This document shows positions 1,999 through 16,181 of a DNA stretch of 64,000 bases, one piece after another; positions within the stretch are counted from its first letter, which is position 1; each line of letters opens with the position of its first letter. The DNA lies in the NCBI RefSeq assembly GCF_002980525.1, contig NZ_PVBQ01000019.1, positions 1 to 64,000 on the forward strand, read 5' to 3'. Source of the stretch: Sphingobacterium haloxyli (lineage in GTDB: Bacteria > Bacteroidota > Bacteroidia > Sphingobacteriales > Sphingobacteriaceae). The notes beneath the pieces are model-generated. The model saw only the letters and a program-made list of their open reading frames with translations, ran no database searches and had not been told where the DNA came from. A program made the position numbers and the translations under genes.

Positions 1999-3414
1999 AT
2001 GAACAATTTTTACAGGGGTGGGAGAGGACTGGCCTTTTTCAAGCACCTATTTCGCCTTTTCAAATCAAGAAATAACCGAAGCCGGACGCTGTTCAGCTTC
2101 GCGGCACCAATTTTATGTTTCATGTTGTTTAATCTATCAGAAGCCCGGACGCAGTCCCGAGATGACCTCGGGGCTGCCGAAAGGCAAACCGAGATTAAGC
2201 CATTGGAAATAGGGGATACCATCCCCGAATATATATGGCAGCTGCCATTGCGGGTTGTTAATCATCCCGCCGGAAAGGATACGATTACTTTATACGACTA
2301 CCGAGATAAGAAACTGATTATTCTGGACTTTTGGGCAACATGGTGTACGAGTTGTATTAAAGCTTTTCCTAAGTTAGACACGCTTCAAAAAGATATTGGA
2401 CAAAAGGAAATGCAGATCGTGTTGGTGAACAGTAAGTCGACCAGGGACAATAGCATCAGTACGAAGCAGTTCTTCCGCAATAAACGGTATCTCCCAGACC
2501 TGCTGTCGGTGACGGAAGACACAGTATTCAAAGAACTTTTCCCTCACCGGAGCATCCCACATTATGTCTGGCTCCGCGATGGGCGTCTGCTAGCGACGAC
2601 GAAGGCCGAAGATCTTACTTGTGAAAATATCCAAAAGGCGATGGCAGGAGGCGCGATCAATTCTTCCCGTGTGCCGCGGATTTCATTCGATATCCGCCAG
2701 CCTTTATTTGACAACGGAAACGGCGGACAGGCACCCGTTCCCATTTATAAATCGACTTTGAGCCCTTTCATGAATGGGCTTAAAAGTGCATTTGCAATCG
2801 ATGTGAACGATTTTGGACAATATACCAGATTGGTATTTACAAACAGTCCCCTGATCAATCTTTTGACCTACGCTTACCCAGCGCTTCAAGCTCTCTCTCC
2901 GTCACGCCTCATTCTGGATGTGGAAGACAAAAGTCCATTTCGACAGGAACCCTTCATGAAGTGGAAAAGTAGGCATCTCTATACCTATGAGGCCCGCTTC
3001 CCCGCAACTACTGAAGAGAAAGCGAAAGAGCTTATGCAATCCGACCTTCGCACATATTTCAAATACGATATTACAGATACGATCATGGAGATGGATTGTT
3101 TAGTTGCGAGGCCGGTCGATCCGAATGTCGGCAAGGTGCGCGATATCGCTAAGTCAACAAACCAAAACGAAGGTGAGAGCACGGATACTTATTTCCAAGA
3201 CTATGCACTCGACGCTTTTTTTGAACAGATAGAGGCACTCCAGCGAATGCCTGTCGTAAATGAGACTGGCATGGAAGATCGCTCCATACTCCGGCTACCC
3301 ACCGACCTATCGGATATGTCTAGGGTAAAGAGTGCTTTGCAGCGATATGATATTGAATTCTCGGTAGAAAAAAGACAGGTACCTGTTGTCATCCTTTCAG
3401 ATAAAAAAAACTAA
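1999..3414 (+). CDS. TlpA-like thioredoxin-fold protein with unknown C-terminal region
   Basis: 471 residues. A basic N-terminus and hydrophobic stretch (about residues 30-46) act as signal peptide or anchor. Residues about 68-210 are a redoxin/TlpA domain with the active site FWATWCTSC (Cys116 and Cys119), so it should be a periplasmic thiol-disulfide oxidoreductase. The remaining roughly 260 residues match no domain I can name. It is the first gene of an operon with SusC, which starts 3 bases after its stop, and SusD. TlpA-like proteins fused or linked to SusCD pairs are common in this phylum, but the substrate is not known. Confidence 0.75.
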   Translation: MNNFYRGGRGLAFFKHLFRLFKSRNNRSRTLFSFAAPILCFMLFNLSEARTQSRDDLGAAERQTEIKPLEIGDTIPEYIWQLPLRVVNHPAGKDTITLYDYRDKKLIILDFWATWCTSCIKAFPKLDTLQKDIGQKEMQIVLVNSKSTRDNSISTKQFFRNKRYLPDLLSVTEDTVFKELFPHRSIPHYVWLRDGRLLATTKAEDLTCENIQKAMAGGAINSSRVPRISFDIRQPLFDNGNGGQAPVPIYKSTLSPFMNGLKSAFAIDVNDFGQYTRLVFTNSPLINLLTYAYPALQALSPSRLILDVEDKSPFRQEPFMKWKSRHLYTYEARFPATTEEKAKELMQSDLRTYFKYDITDTIMEMDCLVARPVDPNVGKVRDIAKSTNQNEGESTDTYFQDYALDAFFEQIEALQRMPVVNETGMEDRSILRLPTDLSDMSRVKSALQRYDIEFSVEKRQVPVVILSDKKN

Positions 3415-10974: not shown

Positions 10975-11036
10975 CTTATTTGTTGTGTTGACATTTATAA
11001 TGTATATTGAGATTCATAATCACCTAGATCGTGCTA

Positions 11037-12098
11037 ATGAATCCAATTGTCAGAACTATATATCGTTCCAATGTTTGGGCTTTTCCAGTTTTTGTCCTAG
11101 TCTTTTGCGCGGCGAACGGATTGTTCGTAAAAGACCGTATACCAAGCAATCAGATATTGCTGGCATCGCTTTTATTTGCAATATATTATAACTGGGTGTA
11201 CTATGTTGTGCTAAACGTCTATAGGGGCGGAAGAAAGAAAAGAATAATTGCAGGAGTCGCTTTAGTTATTCTTTTACTGACTATAGAACCTACGCTGGAA
11301 TTTTTGATATATACTTGTTTCCCCTCCATGGATGTTTATTTCGACAAATACATGTTAGAAAAGGATTATGTCCACGATATTTCAGAGTTTCGGCAACGTT
11401 GGATAACGGCTTTGCTAGTTATTTTTTTTGCTGTGATAATAAGGCTGGCTTTCCGTTTAAATAGAAACAAAACAATCGAAGCCGAAGAGTCAAAAAAACA
11501 GAAAGCTAAGCAGGATGAGGAAATAAAAACGTTGCACGATCGCTTGAAGGCTCGGCAGCTCAACACACACTTTATCGAGAATTTCGTGCTCATTGCGCTC
11601 CATAGAGAAAAGAAACAGAATAAAGAAAACGTGGAGATGTTGACTATGTTGACCGACCTCATGAACTACCAATTGAGTATGGATAATCAACAACAAACCA
11701 CCAATTGGCAAGAAGAATGGGACCAAGTGGAAAATCTCCTACAGATGGCGTATTATAAGGATGCGAATTTTGTGTACGAATGGGCCCACGACGACGGAAT
11801 AGCTGATTTGGAAATGGTTATCCCGCACGGCTTATTGTTGATGCCCTTGGAAAACGCACTAAAATACGGAAGGAACACCGCAGCATGGCCGTTACGGATG
11901 GAGTTCAGCAGAAAGGATAACCGGATATACATTAGGTATACTAACTATTTTGACCCCGTGGTGCGCGACAGAATTAAGTCTACCGGCAAGGGATTTAAGC
12001 TTATGGAGACACGGATAGCAGCTGGCGCATGGCCTATTATACTTCGTAAATCGGAAGTAGATAATCTTTTCTGGGTGGATATTGAAATAGCATGTTGA
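11037..12098 (+). CDS. LytS-type sensor histidine kinase
   Basis: 353 residues from the ATG at 11037; a GTG two codons earlier is the alternative. Four predicted membrane helices lie at about residues 10-30, 38-62, 70-95 and 122-142. A charged linker or coiled coil follows, then a His_kinase box LKARQLNTHFIENF with His178. The ATP-binding part has VIPHGLLLMPLENALKYG (N-box) and STGKGFKLMETRI (G-box). The usual NPHF is NTHF, a mild deviation. There is no extracellular domain, so ligand sensing would be through the membrane helices, as in AgrC or LytS kinases. Its partner regulator starts 19 bases downstream. Confidence 0.85.
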   Translation: MNPIVRTIYRSNVWAFPVFVLVFCAANGLFVKDRIPSNQILLASLLFAIYYNWVYYVVLNVYRGGRKKRIIAGVALVILLLTIEPTLEFLIYTCFPSMDVYFDKYMLEKDYVHDISEFRQRWITALLVIFFAVIIRLAFRLNRNKTIEAEESKKQKAKQDEEIKTLHDRLKARQLNTHFIENFVLIALHREKKQNKENVEMLTMLTDLMNYQLSMDNQQQTTNWQEEWDQVENLLQMAYYKDANFVYEWAHDDGIADLEMVIPHGLLLMPLENALKYGRNTAAWPLRMEFSRKDNRIYIRYTNYFDPVVRDRIKSTGKGFKLMETRIAAGAWPIILRKSEVDNLFWVDIEIAC

Positions 12099-12117: not shown

Positions 12118-12840
12118 ATGAGAAAGGAAAAATATACTGTACTAATTGTTGACGATCAGTTGGAATCCATGGGGCATATTGAAACAACATTAAGGAAACT
12201 ACCGCATTTGGAGGTACAGACCGAGAGTGACCTCATGAGGGCAAGATCTACAGTGGACCAAGGTGTCGTCGATATCCTTGTCTTAGATCTGCATATGCCG
12301 GAAACGGACGGATTTACGTTTATAGGTCTTTTAGAGCATGAACCAGCCGTGATTATGTGTTCTGGTCATGAAATATCAGGCACGGAAGCTTTTGACCATG
12401 GCGTTGCAGATTGTATAAAAAAAATGGCTTCCAGAAAAAGAGTAATAGAAGCTGTGGAAAAGGCGATAAAGCGACTGTACGACCGTGAGAAAGAAAAGGA
12501 AAGTGCGAAGACAGTAATCACGCTTAGAGGGGTACAAGATAATTCACCAGAGGAAATTAATTGGAAGGAAATTCAATATGTATCCATCAAGGACGGTGTA
12601 CTGACGGTATTCGACATGGAGGCCCAAAAGTCTGATTATAATTGCACTTTATTAGGGTTTTTAGCCAAGGTGCCTTCGCAGGAATTTGTGCAGACACATC
12701 GATGCTACGCTGTTCGGGTAGATACAATTTGTTACAGGGAAGGTAAAAAAGTGATATTGACCAAATGGTGTGAGGTGCCGATTGGAGATAAATATTTTGA
12801 TGAAGTAGAGCGGGTAATTGACCGTTTGAAATATGAATGA
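12118..12840 (+). CDS. LytTR-family response regulator
   Basis: 240 residues. The receiver domain has acidic pocket VDD (11-13), phosphoacceptor Asp57 in DILVLDLHMPETDG, Ser82 and Lys101/102. From about residue 135 the LytTR DNA-binding domain is visible: INWKEIQYVSIKDGVLTVF, LGFLAKVPSQEFVQTHRCYAVRV. It would be phosphorylated by the LytS-type kinase encoded just upstream and bind direct repeats about one to two helical turns apart. The 11-base-periodic region some 370 bases downstream and the palindrome upstream of the peptide gene are possible targets, not proven. Confidence 0.92.
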   Translation: MRKEKYTVLIVDDQLESMGHIETTLRKLPHLEVQTESDLMRARSTVDQGVVDILVLDLHMPETDGFTFIGLLEHEPAVIMCSGHEISGTEAFDHGVADCIKKMASRKRVIEAVEKAIKRLYDREKEKESAKTVITLRGVQDNSPEEINWKEIQYVSIKDGVLTVFDMEAQKSDYNCTLLGFLAKVPSQEFVQTHRCYAVRVDTICYREGKKVILTKWCEVPIGDKYFDEVERVIDRLKYE

Positions 12841-12865: not shown

Positions 12866-13216
12866 ATGAGAAGAACCTTAATGGCCATATGCCGTTATCT
12901 GATTCGTATTATCCGTTTGTTGCATGAATTAAAGTTTCAGATCACCCATCAGGAAACAGAAAACAGGCGCGTGCTGTGCGCTCTCCGAGACGAATACGCT
13001 GACCTAAAACAACAGCTATCGAGTCAAGTGGAGCAGGAAACCATATACCGCGATGCGGAGTATGCCATGGAATTTATCGGCATCAGCGAGAGTACCTTGG
13101 CTCGCCACCAGCGCAAGGGGCAGCTTGCTGTGGCGAAGATTGACAGAGGTAAGCGTTATTTTAGACAGCAGGATCTAGAGCGTTTCAAAAGAGAGTACTG
13201 GAACTTACCGGACTAA
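12866..13216 (+). CDS. Excisionase/MerR-type helix-turn-helix protein
   Basis: 116 residues. The N-terminal half is a basic helix and coiled-coil region. From about residue 65 a HTH_17-type domain runs YRDAEYAMEFIGISESTLARHQRKGQLAVAKIDRGKRYFRQQDLERF, with helix-turn-helix, wing and a conserved RYFRQQDLERF tail. Such proteins are common in Bacteroidota mobile elements as excisionase-like DNA-binding factors. Its stop codon coincides with the beginning of the 11-base-periodic array, which makes it the nearest candidate to bind that array. It follows the response regulator by 25 bases and is probably in the same transcript. Confidence 0.75.
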   Translation: MRRTLMAICRYLIRIIRLLHELKFQITHQETENRRVLCALRDEYADLKQQLSSQVEQETIYRDAEYAMEFIGISESTLARHQRKGQLAVAKIDRGKRYFRQQDLERFKREYWNLPD

Positions 13217-13520
13217 CCTTTTTCCATACCTGCTTCACCCTTTCTTCGAACCTTATTCGCCCATTGACTGCGTTTTTTATGTGATTTTACCGTGCAATTA
13301 CCGAGCGGCACACGGTAATCACACGTTGGTTACACGGTAAATCTACGGTAAATGGGCGAACACTCTCCGAACAGTGTCCGAACTGAAGGCGAATACTATT
13401 CGAATAGACCGTGAAACACATCCTGTCAGTGTCCTGTCAATCCAACGGGAAATGCCTGTCAGCACCCTGTCAACCGCCTTCTAGCTCTTGTTTTGTGCCT
13501 GTGTTGTGCTGTATGTTTGT
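13213..13520. repeat. Non-coding array with strict 11-base period (about 27 blocks)
   Basis: Read in blocks of 11 bases from 13213, neighbouring blocks share about half their positions by my hand count, against about a quarter expected. The shared core drifts along the array. ACGGTAA occurs at 13312, 13334 and 13345. CGAA occurs at 13357, 13368, 13379, 13390 and 13401. CCTGTCA occurs at 13422, 13433, 13455 and 13466. A TGTnTTGTGC form occurs at 13489 and 13500. A CG dinucleotide is at the same block position in eleven consecutive blocks (13291-13401). There is no credible gene. Eleven bases is one turn of DNA, so the cores lie on one face. Confidence 0.75.
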
Positions 13521-13591
13521 TGCCGTAAGCCCCATATACCGGTATGCGAGAAGGCGTTACAGATGGTTTAACAATTTAATTTTTTTTAATT

Positions 13592-14236
13592 ATGGGAACG
13601 ATTAGAAGAGGAGCAAATGGAGGATTCAGCGGGAAAGCTGGATCGGTTATCGGCAGCAGCTGGAAGAGCATAGACTACATTAAAGGGCTGCCGAAAAAAC
13701 GGACGAAACCGATGACGCAGGAACAGCTGGTACAGCAGGCGCGTTTTGCGGTATTGACCCGTTTCTTGATGCCGCTCACCCCGATGGTGCGCGTGGGCTA
13801 CGGCCAGATCCAGTCGCATCGGGCCACGCCGATGAATGTAGCCGTGCAGCAAAATATGGACCGTGCCGTAACCGGTACGTATCCGGATTTTTCCGTCGAT
13901 TATGCCGCTGTGCGTATCAGCGAAGGCCGCCTGCTCGGAGGAGGTACGGTATCTGCGACAGTAGATGCTGGTGTATTGACGGTGAACTGGAGCACGGACG
14001 TGAACGACCTGATGGATTCCAATGCGGATGATCTGGTGTATATCGTGCTTTTCCAGCCGGAGATCGATGAGTTCATGTCGACACCTACACGCCCTACAAG
14101 GGCAGACGGTGAGGTAGACATCGCTATTCCGGAGCATTTCCTTGGAGGGCAAGGCCATGTCTGGATTTTCTTTTCCGATCGGAAGGCTAAGCGCGTGTCG
14201 CGGAGTTCCTACTTGGGTGAGTTAGACCTGCAATAA
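13592..14236 (+). CDS. DUF6266 family protein
   Basis: 214 residues. It starts MGTIRRGANGGFSGKAGSVIGSSWKSIDYIKGLPKK, the hallmark of DUF6266 (a Gly-rich SGKxGxVxGxxWK start followed by RxKP). The remainder looks like two beta-sandwich-like repeats (ISEGRLLGGG...VTVNWSTDVNDL; VDIAIPEHFLGGQGHVWIFFSD). There is no signal peptide or membrane helix. The family is restricted to Bacteroidota and has no established function. It stands alone after the periodic array and is followed by a hairpin and a second, shorter paralogue. The opening resembles phage structural or packaging-associated proteins, but that is impression only. Confidence 0.8.
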   Translation: MGTIRRGANGGFSGKAGSVIGSSWKSIDYIKGLPKKRTKPMTQEQLVQQARFAVLTRFLMPLTPMVRVGYGQIQSHRATPMNVAVQQNMDRAVTGTYPDFSVDYAAVRISEGRLLGGGTVSATVDAGVLTVNWSTDVNDLMDSNADDLVYIVLFQPEIDEFMSTPTRPTRADGEVDIAIPEHFLGGQGHVWIFFSDRKAKRVSRSSYLGELDLQ

Positions 14237-14312: not shown

Positions 14313-14894
14313 ATGATCGTACATAATGGAATATCCGCCCCAATAGATGGACGGACATTGGCCAGGCTGCGGTTCCGATCCGCTTCAAAATTTTTGGCTC
14401 CGTTGGCGGGGTTGATAAATCAAGGTCTAGGAAGTGTGAAGAAGTCTGGCGCGACACCGATGGGAAGAGCAATGTCACATTTGTTGACTGCGGGCTTTAA
14501 CGACAAGTACCCCGGATTGGAGATAGATCCCGGCAAAGTGAAACTGAGTGACGGCAATTTGGACAACCCACCGGAAGTGGAGCTGGCTCTCCATGGGGAT
14601 AGGGCAACCGTTTCTTGGTCTACGGCGACGTTGAACCCCTTCAATGCCTATGATGACGACCTCGTTATTGTTTGCGCGTATAATGTCGCTGCGCGCTGCG
14701 CTGTGCTCCAGGAAGGAGAGGTACAGCGAAAAGACGCTGAAGCGATCGTTGTCCTACCGGCCGAGTTTTTAGAGGAGACCACACACCTCTATTTGCTGAC
14801 GCACACCCGTGATGGGAAACGGTTTTCGCGAAACATATACCTAGGTGTACGGACGGCAGAAAATAGAATAGTTAACGAAAAGCGAAGAACATGA
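14313..14894 (+). CDS. Second DUF6266-like protein
   Basis: 193 residues, a diverged paralogue of the preceding gene. It shares RFRSASKFLAPLAGLINQGLG with the ARFAVLTRFLMPLTPMVRVGYG region, the ATPM motif, LSDGNL/ISEGRL, VSWST/VNWST and the closing SRNIYLG/SRSSYLG. It lacks the N-terminal Gly-rich SGKAGSVIG segment of its neighbour and is therefore shorter. Its stop overlaps the start of the next gene as ATGA, so the two are translationally coupled. The function is unknown; coupling to a lysis-like cassette suggests a shared cell-envelope or particle-related role. Confidence 0.75.
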   Translation: MIVHNGISAPIDGRTLARLRFRSASKFLAPLAGLINQGLGSVKKSGATPMGRAMSHLLTAGFNDKYPGLEIDPGKVKLSDGNLDNPPEVELALHGDRATVSWSTATLNPFNAYDDDLVIVCAYNVAARCAVLQEGEVQRKDAEAIVVLPAEFLEETTHLYLLTHTRDGKRFSRNIYLGVRTAENRIVNEKRRT

Positions 14895-15277
14895 AAACAC
14901 TTCAAACAAATACCCCCTGGCTCATCAAGGATATGGCAGGGGAGCTATCGGGAAAACACAAAATCGGGATTGTAGTCTTGCTGATGCTGGCATTGTTCCT
15001 GTTTATCGGAACGATCTTGCAGTTCATAGATCGTACCGCAGGTGTACTCGATATCGGCATCTTATCGGTATGGCTCTTTGGTCTATTAGTAGGCATGGCG
15101 GCCATCTTCTGTAGCCTCTGGTTGCAGGAAATCCTTTGGCAGCCCTTCAAGGCATTCCGTAAAGAATTCAATTACCATTTTAATCAATTGACATCATGGC
15201 AACAATGTATCATCTATTTTTCGGTATTCTTTTTATCGCTGTTTGCGGTGCTGTGGGCACTGGCCATCCTCTTATAG
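14891..15277 (+). CDS. Small membrane protein, holin-like position
   Basis: 128 residues with three hydrophobic segments: IGIVVLLMLALFLFIGTILQF, ILSVWLFGLLVGMAAIFCSLWL and CIIYFSVFFLSLFAVLWALAILL. The start overlaps the DUF6266 stop (ATGA) and its end overlaps the next gene by 82 bases. Short multi-helix proteins directly before a peptidoglycan hydrolase and a spanin-like lipoprotein occupy the holin position in phage lysis cassettes. I see no sequence similarity to a named holin family, so the assignment is positional only. Confidence 0.6.
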   Translation: MKTLQTNTPWLIKDMAGELSGKHKIGIVVLLMLALFLFIGTILQFIDRTAGVLDIGILSVWLFGLLVGMAAIFCSLWLQEILWQPFKAFRKEFNYHFNQLTSWQQCIIYFSVFFLSLFAVLWALAILL

Positions 15278-15777
15278 TGGCGAAACATGTGCCTTCATTA
15301 CAAGAGAGGGCGGAGAGCACGCTACGACAAGAGGTCATCGGGATTGCCCTGCAAGAAATCGGTGTGCGGGAGGCAACGGGTAATAACGATGGGAAGCGGG
15401 TAGAAGAATATCTCCGGTATACTGGTCTGGGTAAAGGTTATGCCTGGTGTTCAGCATTCGTGAGCTGGTGTTATGGTCAAGCTGGATTAATCGAACCCCG
15501 CAATCCGTGGAGCCCGGCCTTGTTTCCAAATGCCCGGACATATTGTAGGGGCGACGCCTGTGGTCGTCCCATTACATTGACGCAGATAAAGCCAGCCGAT
15601 ATCTTTGGTATTTATGGTCAAAGCGTCCGACGGATAAACCACGTCGGTCTTATCAAAGATATAAAGGGCAAATACCTGCGTACGATCGAAGGCAACAGCA
15701 ACAACCGGGTGGAATCTAAACGGCGACATCTGTCTACGATATATGCTGTGGCCGATTGGATAGGAGGTGGGAGATGA
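15196..15777 (+). CDS. CHAP-like cysteine peptidase/amidase (endolysin-like)
   Basis: 193 residues. An N-terminal hydrophobic segment (FFGILFIAVCGAVG) is a signal anchor. The catalytic domain spans about residues 45-190. It has GYAWCSAFVSWCYG with Cys85, RRINHVGLI with His149, and an EGNSN acid/amide motif near 165-169, the classic Cys-His-Asn/Glu set of CHAP/NlpC-like peptidoglycan hydrolases of the TIGR02594 type. It should cleave peptide cross-links in the periplasm. It overlaps the upstream membrane gene by 82 bases and the downstream lipoprotein by ATGA. Confidence 0.8.
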   Translation: MATMYHLFFGILFIAVCGAVGTGHPLIVAKHVPSLQERAESTLRQEVIGIALQEIGVREATGNNDGKRVEEYLRYTGLGKGYAWCSAFVSWCYGQAGLIEPRNPWSPALFPNARTYCRGDACGRPITLTQIKPADIFGIYGQSVRRINHVGLIKDIKGKYLRTIEGNSNNRVESKRRHLSTIYAVADWIGGGR

Positions 15778-16181
15778 GAAAGCTGATGACCATACAGGCG
15801 ATAGCATACTTGGCGTTATTATTAACATCATCGTGTTATACGATGCGCAAAACGACGAACAGCGCGGAGCAGCATGGGTTTGCCTATGCGCATACGGCTT
15901 TTGCTTCGGATAGCGCTATTCGGTATTGGTACTTTGCTTCCGATTCCGCCTTTGCCTACCATCCCGACAGCGGATTGCGTACGTTTTCCGGAAGGCTACT
16001 CGGTTGGGAATCCAACGTTAGCCGTAAACTGGAGCAACAAAACTTAGATAGTGTCAGCAGCTACCAACATAAAGCGAAGGAGTCGACTCGGAATAGCGCC
16101 AGCAATTGCTTGCTGCGCTATGCTATATTTTTATTGCTATTGGTGATCTTTGTTATAGCTTATCGGGTGATAAAACGATGA
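15774..16181 (+). CDS. Lipoprotein with C-terminal membrane helix (one-piece spanin-like)
   Basis: Reading from the ATG at 15774 gives 135 residues. I chose this start because AGGAGG sits about 6 bases upstream and the ATG overlaps the preceding stop as ATGA. The lipobox LLLTSSC places the acylated Cys at residue 21. A 90-residue polar periplasmic part follows, then a C-terminal membrane helix (LLRYAIFLLLLVIFVIAYRV) with a basic tail. An outer-membrane lipid anchor plus inner-membrane C-terminal helix is the topology of unimolecular spanins such as phage T1 gp11. It follows an endolysin-like gene, the expected place. No sequence homology to known spanins is claimed. Confidence 0.6.
   Translation: MRKLMTIQAIAYLALLLTSSCYTMRKTTNSAEQHGFAYAHTAFASDSAIRYWYFASDSAFAYHPDSGLRTFSGRLLGWESNVSRKLEQQNLDSVSSYQHKAKESTRNSASNCLLRYAIFLLLLVIFVIAYRVIKR

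Follow-up and report, generated by a model that had tools for sequence, protein, structure and literature searches.

Mirror-symmetric arrays on an exact 11-bp lattice precede DUF6266 genes in Sphingobacterium and related genera: a candidate operator scaffold

INTRODUCTION

Direct repeats of 11 bp that are read by MerR-like proteins are already known. The MerR-type winged helix-turn-helix (wHTH) protein CarH occupies operators of three to four tandem 11-bp direct repeats, in which pseudo-repeats are tolerated, as in the arrangement DR1-dr2-DR3-DR4 (PMC9304148). Head-to-tail filaments of BldC assemble on direct repeats (PMC5859096), each protomer taking up one DNA turn (a description given in PMC11963761). 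In Bacteroides, operons of the LytTR type carry 11-bp direct repeats that are separated by 11 bp and lie 11 bp upstream of the promoter (PMC6193735).

Operators are usually known by their conserved letters. Here, we describe arrays that keep the spacing (11.0 bp) and a mirror layout, while their letters change completely and seem to do so together with a neighbouring DNA-binding protein. The first of them lies in a 64,000-nucleotide stretch of Sphingobacterium haloxyli DNA (contig NZ_PVBQ01000019.1, hereafter the window), between an HTH_17 gene and a DUF6266 gene. Like the CarH and CarA operators, it consists of exact 11-bp tandem direct repeats at a promoter with a MerR-type winged HTH as candidate reader, and the part that we term module B is similar to them. 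Operators of CarH contain three to five units, all pointing the same way, whereas the arrays described here have 10 to more than 20 units arranged about a dyad, and the HTH protein (116 aa) shows no B12 domain, unlike CarH and CarA, which are MerR-family B12 photoreceptors. BldC resembles the HTH protein in being a short MerR-like wHTH and is among its fold matches, and its repeats vary in number. The protein here is a putative binder that differs from BldC by an extra 54-residue N-terminal helix, and the array differs from BldC sites in being mirror-symmetric, exact to 11 bp and much longer. The one-turn spacing of 11 bp recurs in the window and in 53 related arrays, but the single repeat orientation of BldC and CarH sites does not hold in module A, which inverts at the dyad.

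In the literature searched, we found no dyad arrays of 10 to more than 20 units that conserve their period with free letters before one gene family across genera, and no description of such arrays in Sphingobacteriaceae; as the search lacked most subscription journals, this is weak evidence of absence. In length, mirror symmetry, dispersed copies and conservation of period without sequence, the arrays go beyond the known members.

RESULTS AND DISCUSSION

The array has an exact 11-bp period and consists of two modules

Over positions 13213-13520, identity at lag 11 was 0.495, compared to a mean of 0.254 (sd 0.025, maximum 0.357) in 5,000 dinucleotide-preserving shuffles (z 9.5). Identity at lags 22, 33 and 44 was 0.441, 0.382 and 0.307, while lags 10, 12, 21 and 23 were at background level. 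With 300-bp windows and lags 2-39, this was the top score of the entire 64-kb window. The exact 11-base period noticed in the sequence-only reading was thus borne out, as was its expectation of an autocorrelation peak at lag 11 and multiples well above shuffled controls. Tandem Repeats Finder reported mere fragments of the array because distant units differ. The CG that had been read at the same phase of eleven consecutive blocks proved exact (13291, 13302 and so on to 13401), and 13 of the 18 CGs in the region fall on that phase.

The strongest part of the array is 13225-13395 (lag-11 identity 0.556, z 9.1); 13396-13520 is weaker (0.404, z 3.5) and holds a module of R-R-gap-R-R layout and a predicted promoter. 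The array is two modules, A (~13225-13405) and B (13422-13476), and not one drifting array (Table 1). Of the earlier description as a single array with a drifting core, the period stands and the unity does not, and the last step of the supposed core, TGTnTTGTGC, is the promoter region. The earlier statement that neighbours agree while distant blocks differ is correct but incomplete, as blocks far apart often match as reverse complements. That reading lacked the mirror symmetry, the division into modules, the promoter, a conserved ATACCGGTAT palindrome and the dispersed copies, all of which were found here.

Table 1. Features of the array and its gene neighbourhood, in window coordinates
Feature	Position	Strand	Basis or remark
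LytS/YehU-type histidine kinase partner	11031..12098	+	PF06580 E 1e-4, slightly under curated cut-off
LytTR response regulator (Response_reg + LytTR), candidate activator at module B	12118..12840	+	PF00072 4e-15, PF04397 3.5e-5
HTH_17 protein, candidate array binder	12866..13216	+	PF12728 8.8e-7; 116 aa
Module A, dyad-symmetric array on exact 11-bp lattice	13225..13405	.	Lag-11 z 9.1; mirror score; dispersed homologues cover module A
TTCG units of module A	13245, 13256		Left arm
TTACCG units of module A	13287, 13298		Left arm
CGGTAA units of module A	13313, 13335, 13346; degenerate copy 13324		Right arm
CGAA units of module A	13357, 13368, 13379, 13390, 13401		Right arm
Best ungapped palindrome in module A	13243..13373 (arms 13243-13305 and 13311-13373)		Dyad ~13308; 39/63 positions complementary
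Module B, four CCTGTCA in R-R-gap-R-R layout	13422..13476	+	Copies at 13422, 13433, 13455, 13466; gap unit AACGGGAAATG at 13444
Predicted Bacteroidota promoter	13491..13519	+	TTTTG 13491-13495; -7 box TATGTTTG 13512-13519, exact match to TAnnTTTG
ATACCGGTAT palindrome just 3' of predicted start	13536..13545	.	Recurrent across several genera at loci linked to LytTR/HTH
DUF6266 protein, first gene of operon	13592..14236	+	PF19781 1.9e-39
Second DUF6266 protein	14313..14894	+	PF19781 8e-14
Small hydrophobic, CHAP and lipoprotein-like genes behind DUF6266	14891..16181	+	Gene order conserved
Small hydrophobic protein (128 aa), putatively holin-like by position	Within 14891..16181	+	
CHAP endolysin-like hydrolase	15196-15777	+	PF05257 1.8e-6; phage endolysin PHROG 5e-11
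Small lipoprotein-like protein, putatively spanin-like	15756-16181	+	

In module A, TTCG and TTACCG units are followed by the dyad and then by CGGTAA and CGAA units, so that, on one lattice, the units right of the dyad mirror those left of it as reverse complements. The best ungapped palindrome had a mirror score of 12.5 versus a shuffle maximum of 6.0, and the next five palindrome diagonals were always offset from it by a multiple of 11. In the 15 arrays examined, mirror complementarity concentrates at the phases of the core motifs and mostly drops in the spacers, the pattern that protein half-sites should give.

The CCTGTCA copies of module B stand at offsets 0, 11, 33 and 44, all in a single orientation and identical in 7/7 core columns, and the unit at offset 22 differs. 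The same geometry with other letters (CGCTTCA, CCCGTCA, TCGGTCA and others) occurred in 20/80 DUF6266 loci, compared to 0-5 for alternative spacings. LytTR operators are marked by a direct-repeat pair with centres 20-22 bp apart just 5' of the promoter; in module B, 22 bp separate copies 2 and 3, yet there are four copies, with neighbours at 11 bp. Module B shares with LytTR operators an adjoining LytTR gene and 11-bp repeats, and differs in having four repeats and one gap, not two repeats. The earlier suggestion of a LytTR multi-site operator fits module B, given the LytTR-type 11-bp repeats of Bacteroides (PMC6193735); module A is without LytTR precedent.

Boxes equivalent to the TAnnTTTG match of the predicted promoter were seen by eye in other loci. 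The ATACCGGTAT palindrome recurs in HTH/LytTR-linked DUF6266 loci (L329, L337, L338, L344, L354), often within a longer imperfect palindrome.

The array precedes a DUF6266 operon with lysis-like genes

The gene order at the locus (one protein, histidine kinase, LytTR, HTH_17, array, two DUF6266 genes, small hydrophobic, CHAP, small lipoprotein-like) is kept in other genomes, and the LytTR gene is present at many syntenic loci. The model of the first DUF6266 protein (pLDDT 89.4) has a helical N-terminal part and an FN3-like C-terminal domain. A fold search returned only weak, generic FN3-type matches with no pointer to function, and PDB sequences gave no match. PHROGs, NCBIfam and PADLOC assigned the locus no named system for DUF6266, and we found no paper on this family in the literature searched. 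The array is the first functional handle on DUF6266 found here, before lysis-like genes under two-component control.

The hydrophobic, CHAP and lipoprotein-like genes look like a lysis cassette, judging by size, order and the CHAP domain. Taken together, the genes of 14891-16181 resemble a holin-endolysin-spanin set that has been domesticated and placed under two-component control by LytTR. Related loci (L069, L073, L080-L082) appeared by eye to carry DUF5675-like and other small hydrophobic proteins instead.

The neighbourhood bears on whether the array might be a parC-like partition centromere, or a recombination or excision site served by an excisionase-like HTH protein. The parC site of plasmid R1 consists of 11-bp direct repeats, which the array recalls, and the HTH_17 protein resembles excisionases. 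However, the arrays are found at many chromosomal sites in a genome, each site lying before a gene; next to the locus, where the neighbours are histidine kinase, LytTR, HTH_17, DUF6266 and CHAP genes, no gene of ParM/ParR type was recognised; and no tyrosine recombinase is present among the annotated flanking ORFs. A DNA search of phage records gave no match. We therefore consider a site of this kind extremely unlikely, and the parC centromere and recombination site put forward by the sequence-only reading were set aside, as was a copying template, which found no support.

The geometry is conserved without the sequence

DUF6266 genes were collected by a scan with an alignment of closer DUF6266 sequences, giving 80 loci from named species, Sphingobacterium, Pedobacter, Parapedobacter, Olivibacter, Daejeonella, a Flavobacteriaceae genome and others. 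Lag 11 was the winning lag upstream of 61 of these 80 genes, which are mutually related and so are not independent events; lag 22 won in seven more, and z exceeded 4 in 63. As a control, lag 11 won at 37 of 591 ordinary gene starts, in stretches of the S. haloxyli genome totalling 800 kb and with a slightly different window width. In a set of 40 DUF6266 genes, lag 11 ranked first upstream of 31 and in the top three in 35, and nearly all of 40 further upstream stretches ranked it first or second, with one clear exception (L279). Behind relatives of the HTH gene in other genomes of the genus, too, there are arrays that keep this period but are spelled differently.

Core motifs varied by group: TTAGG|CCTAA; ATAGGGAC/TTCGGAC|CCCTAT; TTCAGTGCTT|ACTGAA; TATAGGGG|CCCTA; TTCGGTGCTT|CCGAA; and TTACC|GGTAA in Pedobacter. 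The common feature is therefore the geometry. Averaged over 53 arrays, the period was 11.00, with identity on multiples of 11.0 and zero shift up to 66 bp. The earlier proposal to look upstream of other DUF6266 genes was thus answered at orthologous and paralogous loci alike: the period is conserved and the sequence is not.

The precision of the period weighs on a generic DNA-wrapping or nucleoid site such as a strong gyrase site, where a dyad would be flanked by phased GC content over ~130 bp. The gyrase motif is symmetric, covers ~130 bp and shows a phased 10-bp GC variation (PMC6379681), and many arrays alternate GC-rich cores and AT-rich spacers around their dyad. Their period is exactly 11.00 rather than ~10.5, though, with no drift at six periods, and specific cores repeat letter for letter and differ by locus, whereas the gyrase motifs of E. 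coli are degenerate. We regard this explanation as very unlikely.

A further reading is that of a new class of element in which the geometry is the message: the exact 11-bp lattice and the dyad would be fixed, the letters of the units would be free as long as neighbours and arms change together, and the pattern would be read by a letter-tolerant filament protein or through the self-similarity of DNA, with many genes across Bacteroidota reusing it. In Neurospora, homology recognition during RIP relies on short words that match at 11-bp spacing along hundreds of bp, with a preferred period that depends on sequence (PMC4858203). RIP acts between two DNA copies in a fungus, while the arrays here show no sign of pairing, and the likeness is an analogy only. 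We give the new class of element a fairly small chance.

Arrays are linked to a MerR-like winged-HTH gene

The AlphaFold model of the HTH_17 protein (pLDDT 90.9) places a 54-residue helix in front of a MerR-like winged HTH (residues 61-112). Fold matches were led by GlnR, RacA, MtaN, NmlR and BldC, with Xis, CarA, RdfS and CarH lower, none of them at E<=0.001. An HTH_17-like gene lies within 2 kb upstream of 51/80 DUF6266 genes, co-directional in 50 of the 51; its stop is typically 370-600 bp before the DUF6266 start, with the array typically between that stop and the TAnnTTTG promoter. The S. haloxyli genome has just three HTH_17 matches, and each of its two DUF6266 arrays with a LytTR link has one of them immediately 5'.

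Core motifs fall into classes that go with the HTH type (GGTAA, TCGAA, GGCAA, CGGTA, AGTAG). Partial Mantel correlations between motifs and HTH proteins given DUF6266 were 0.42 (module A) and 0.45 (module B), compared to -0.10 and 0.02 for DUF6266 given HTH, in a set with zero pairs of similar HTH and strongly diverged DUF6266. HTH similarity thus appears to account for motif similarity better than DUF6266 similarity, a comparison confounded by the common ancestry of whole loci. The adjacent HTH_17 protein is the best candidate reader of the array. Stand-alone DUF6266 genes (groups G1-G5) keep their arrays, but the stretches inspected there showed no adjacent HTH_17 gene, which calls for another factor at these loci. 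For these arrays and for those that lie away from a promoter, the alternatives are a trans-acting relative that serves them or an independent existence of module A as a dispersed repeat, the main rival explanation considered below.

A model for the array as an operator scaffold

We think it somewhat probable that the array is an operator for a wHTH protein that oligomerises with one protomer per turn, combined with a site for a LytTR-type activator, and that it controls the lysis-like DUF6266 operon. Among the possibilities that the sequence-only reading had listed, a helical nucleoprotein or multi-site operator fares best. The whole-number period and the gain or loss of entire 11-bp units between homologous copies count in its favour, and CarH and BldC provide precedents for the mechanism. 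The assignment of proteins to modules, the single protomer per unit, the filament, its polarity and the sign of regulation are inferred.

In this model, the array would act as a cis-regulatory DNA scaffold 5' of the operon promoter. The putative half-sites of module A are one 11-bp step apart and flip their orientation at the dyad. A MerR-like winged-HTH protein, here most likely HTH_17 (12866-13216), would load one protomer per 11 bp, and protomers would polymerise head to tail on each arm, either towards the dyad or away from it, and two oppositely polar filaments would meet there. The filaments on module A may produce a stiff or wrapped scaffold, with access to the promoter controlled via module B. 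The latter would be a shorter operator beside the promoter, with either the LytTR regulator next door or the same HTH protein as its probable reader, and modules A and B together may switch DUF6266 and the lysis-like genes that follow it on or off. A direct precedent for symmetric opposed filaments was not found in the literature searched, and the arrays offer a test case for whether such filaments exist on DNA. The dozens of natural protein-site pairs could also yield a recognition code for small MerR-like proteins.

Module A has dispersed copies

Homologues of module A occur elsewhere in the same genomes: seven matches in G014, four in G015, and three each in G008 and S. haloxyli (the orthologous DUF6266 site included). 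The dispersed copies are 94% identical over 179 bp and have mostly unrelated flanks, and homologous copies gain or lose single whole 11-bp units. One of the sites with a homologous copy is near an ORF6N gene. Arrays of the same architecture also lie away from DUF6266, between convergent genes (L143) and, on a TTCG lattice, near SusC/thioredoxin genes, and thus not every copy is a promoter operator.

These observations raise the possibility that module A is a dispersed palindromic repeat (REP/MITE-like) that is copied and shaped by 11-bp slippage and by template switching between its arms, with the DUF6266 site frequent but secondary. In its favour are the homologous copies at unrelated sites and a further ~20 related copies across the chromosome of another genome, G030. 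Like REP/BIME and MITE sequences, the arrays are dispersed intergenic imperfect palindromes with several to ~20 copies per genome. They are unlike these elements in their strict internal 11-bp lattice and their tight association with one family, and transposase-like ends were not found. Neither a target-site duplication nor a clear element end was found for the dispersed copies, and a single attempt at an empty-site comparison, at the L143 locus, gave no clean syntenic empty site. Arrays are also rare, at just ~4 in stretches of the S. haloxyli genome totalling 864 kb. Lag-11 arrays precede nearly all DUF6266 genes of several genera, with letters particular to each ortholog group and a near-constant distance to the ATG, which random insertion would not give. 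We consider the dispersed repeat unlikely, though a contender to be taken seriously.

Within one dispersed subfamily, the two arms covary in the spacer closest to the dyad (columns 94-124, 96-122 and 98-120), which speaks for a dispersed repeat. Imperfect palindromes tend to be corrected by template switching, and the covariation reflects either such correction or selection on the palindrome. It counts against simple protein half-sites because these do not require covariation.

The same compensatory changes, at three spacer columns of the central helix, would also suit a strand that functions when folded, as a long RNA hairpin or a DNA cruciform in which each helical turn carries one motif. 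In A-form RNA, a turn takes ~11 bp, and the folding energy of many arrays was below that of shuffles (z -3 to -7; L137, L074, C3_222, L092, L093). The window's own array folds modestly, however (z -2.3 and -2.7), and in most arrays the two strands fold about equally, with no sense preference. A transcript from the predicted promoter would exclude the array because the promoter is 3' of it, and complementarity sits at core phases. Rfam covariance models matched nothing in the window region at E up to 1, and in five other loci they returned only a tRNA and a sub-threshold plastid match. A functional fold is quite improbable in our judgement, and the operator scaffold remains the reading we prefer.

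Several further arrays were seen in the course of these searches. The ~20 dispersed palindromes on the chromosome of G030, a Sphingobacterium genome, share a TTCGAG lattice (e.g., L129, L130, L134, L135); L129 differs from other arrays in folding at -59.6 versus -29.4 kcal/mol between strands. Among 396 genomes of the phylum, the TTCG-lattice pattern picked up sporadic arrays elsewhere, some of which are plain identical tandem repeats and a different thing. In the distant Bacteroidota G444, G257 and G147, identical or near-identical 11-bp tandem repeats (e.g., TTCGTTGAGAA) have the same unit length and are not dyad arrays. L220 (G008:C13:47167) is ~95% identical to L216 in module A and in the DUF6266 leader to the start codon, without module B, and resembles a duplication of the promoter region with an internal deletion.

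ORFs that start M-x-x-FYKGGRG(L)AF, with an XRE-like gene close by, lie before SusC/thioredoxin genes at L124, L125, L126, L136, L142 and window positions 1999-3414. Several of these ORFs contain a large 11-bp array near their start, while no strong array was seen in the window's own copy (1999-3414). L125 carries a second array, of GTACC and then CTACT units.
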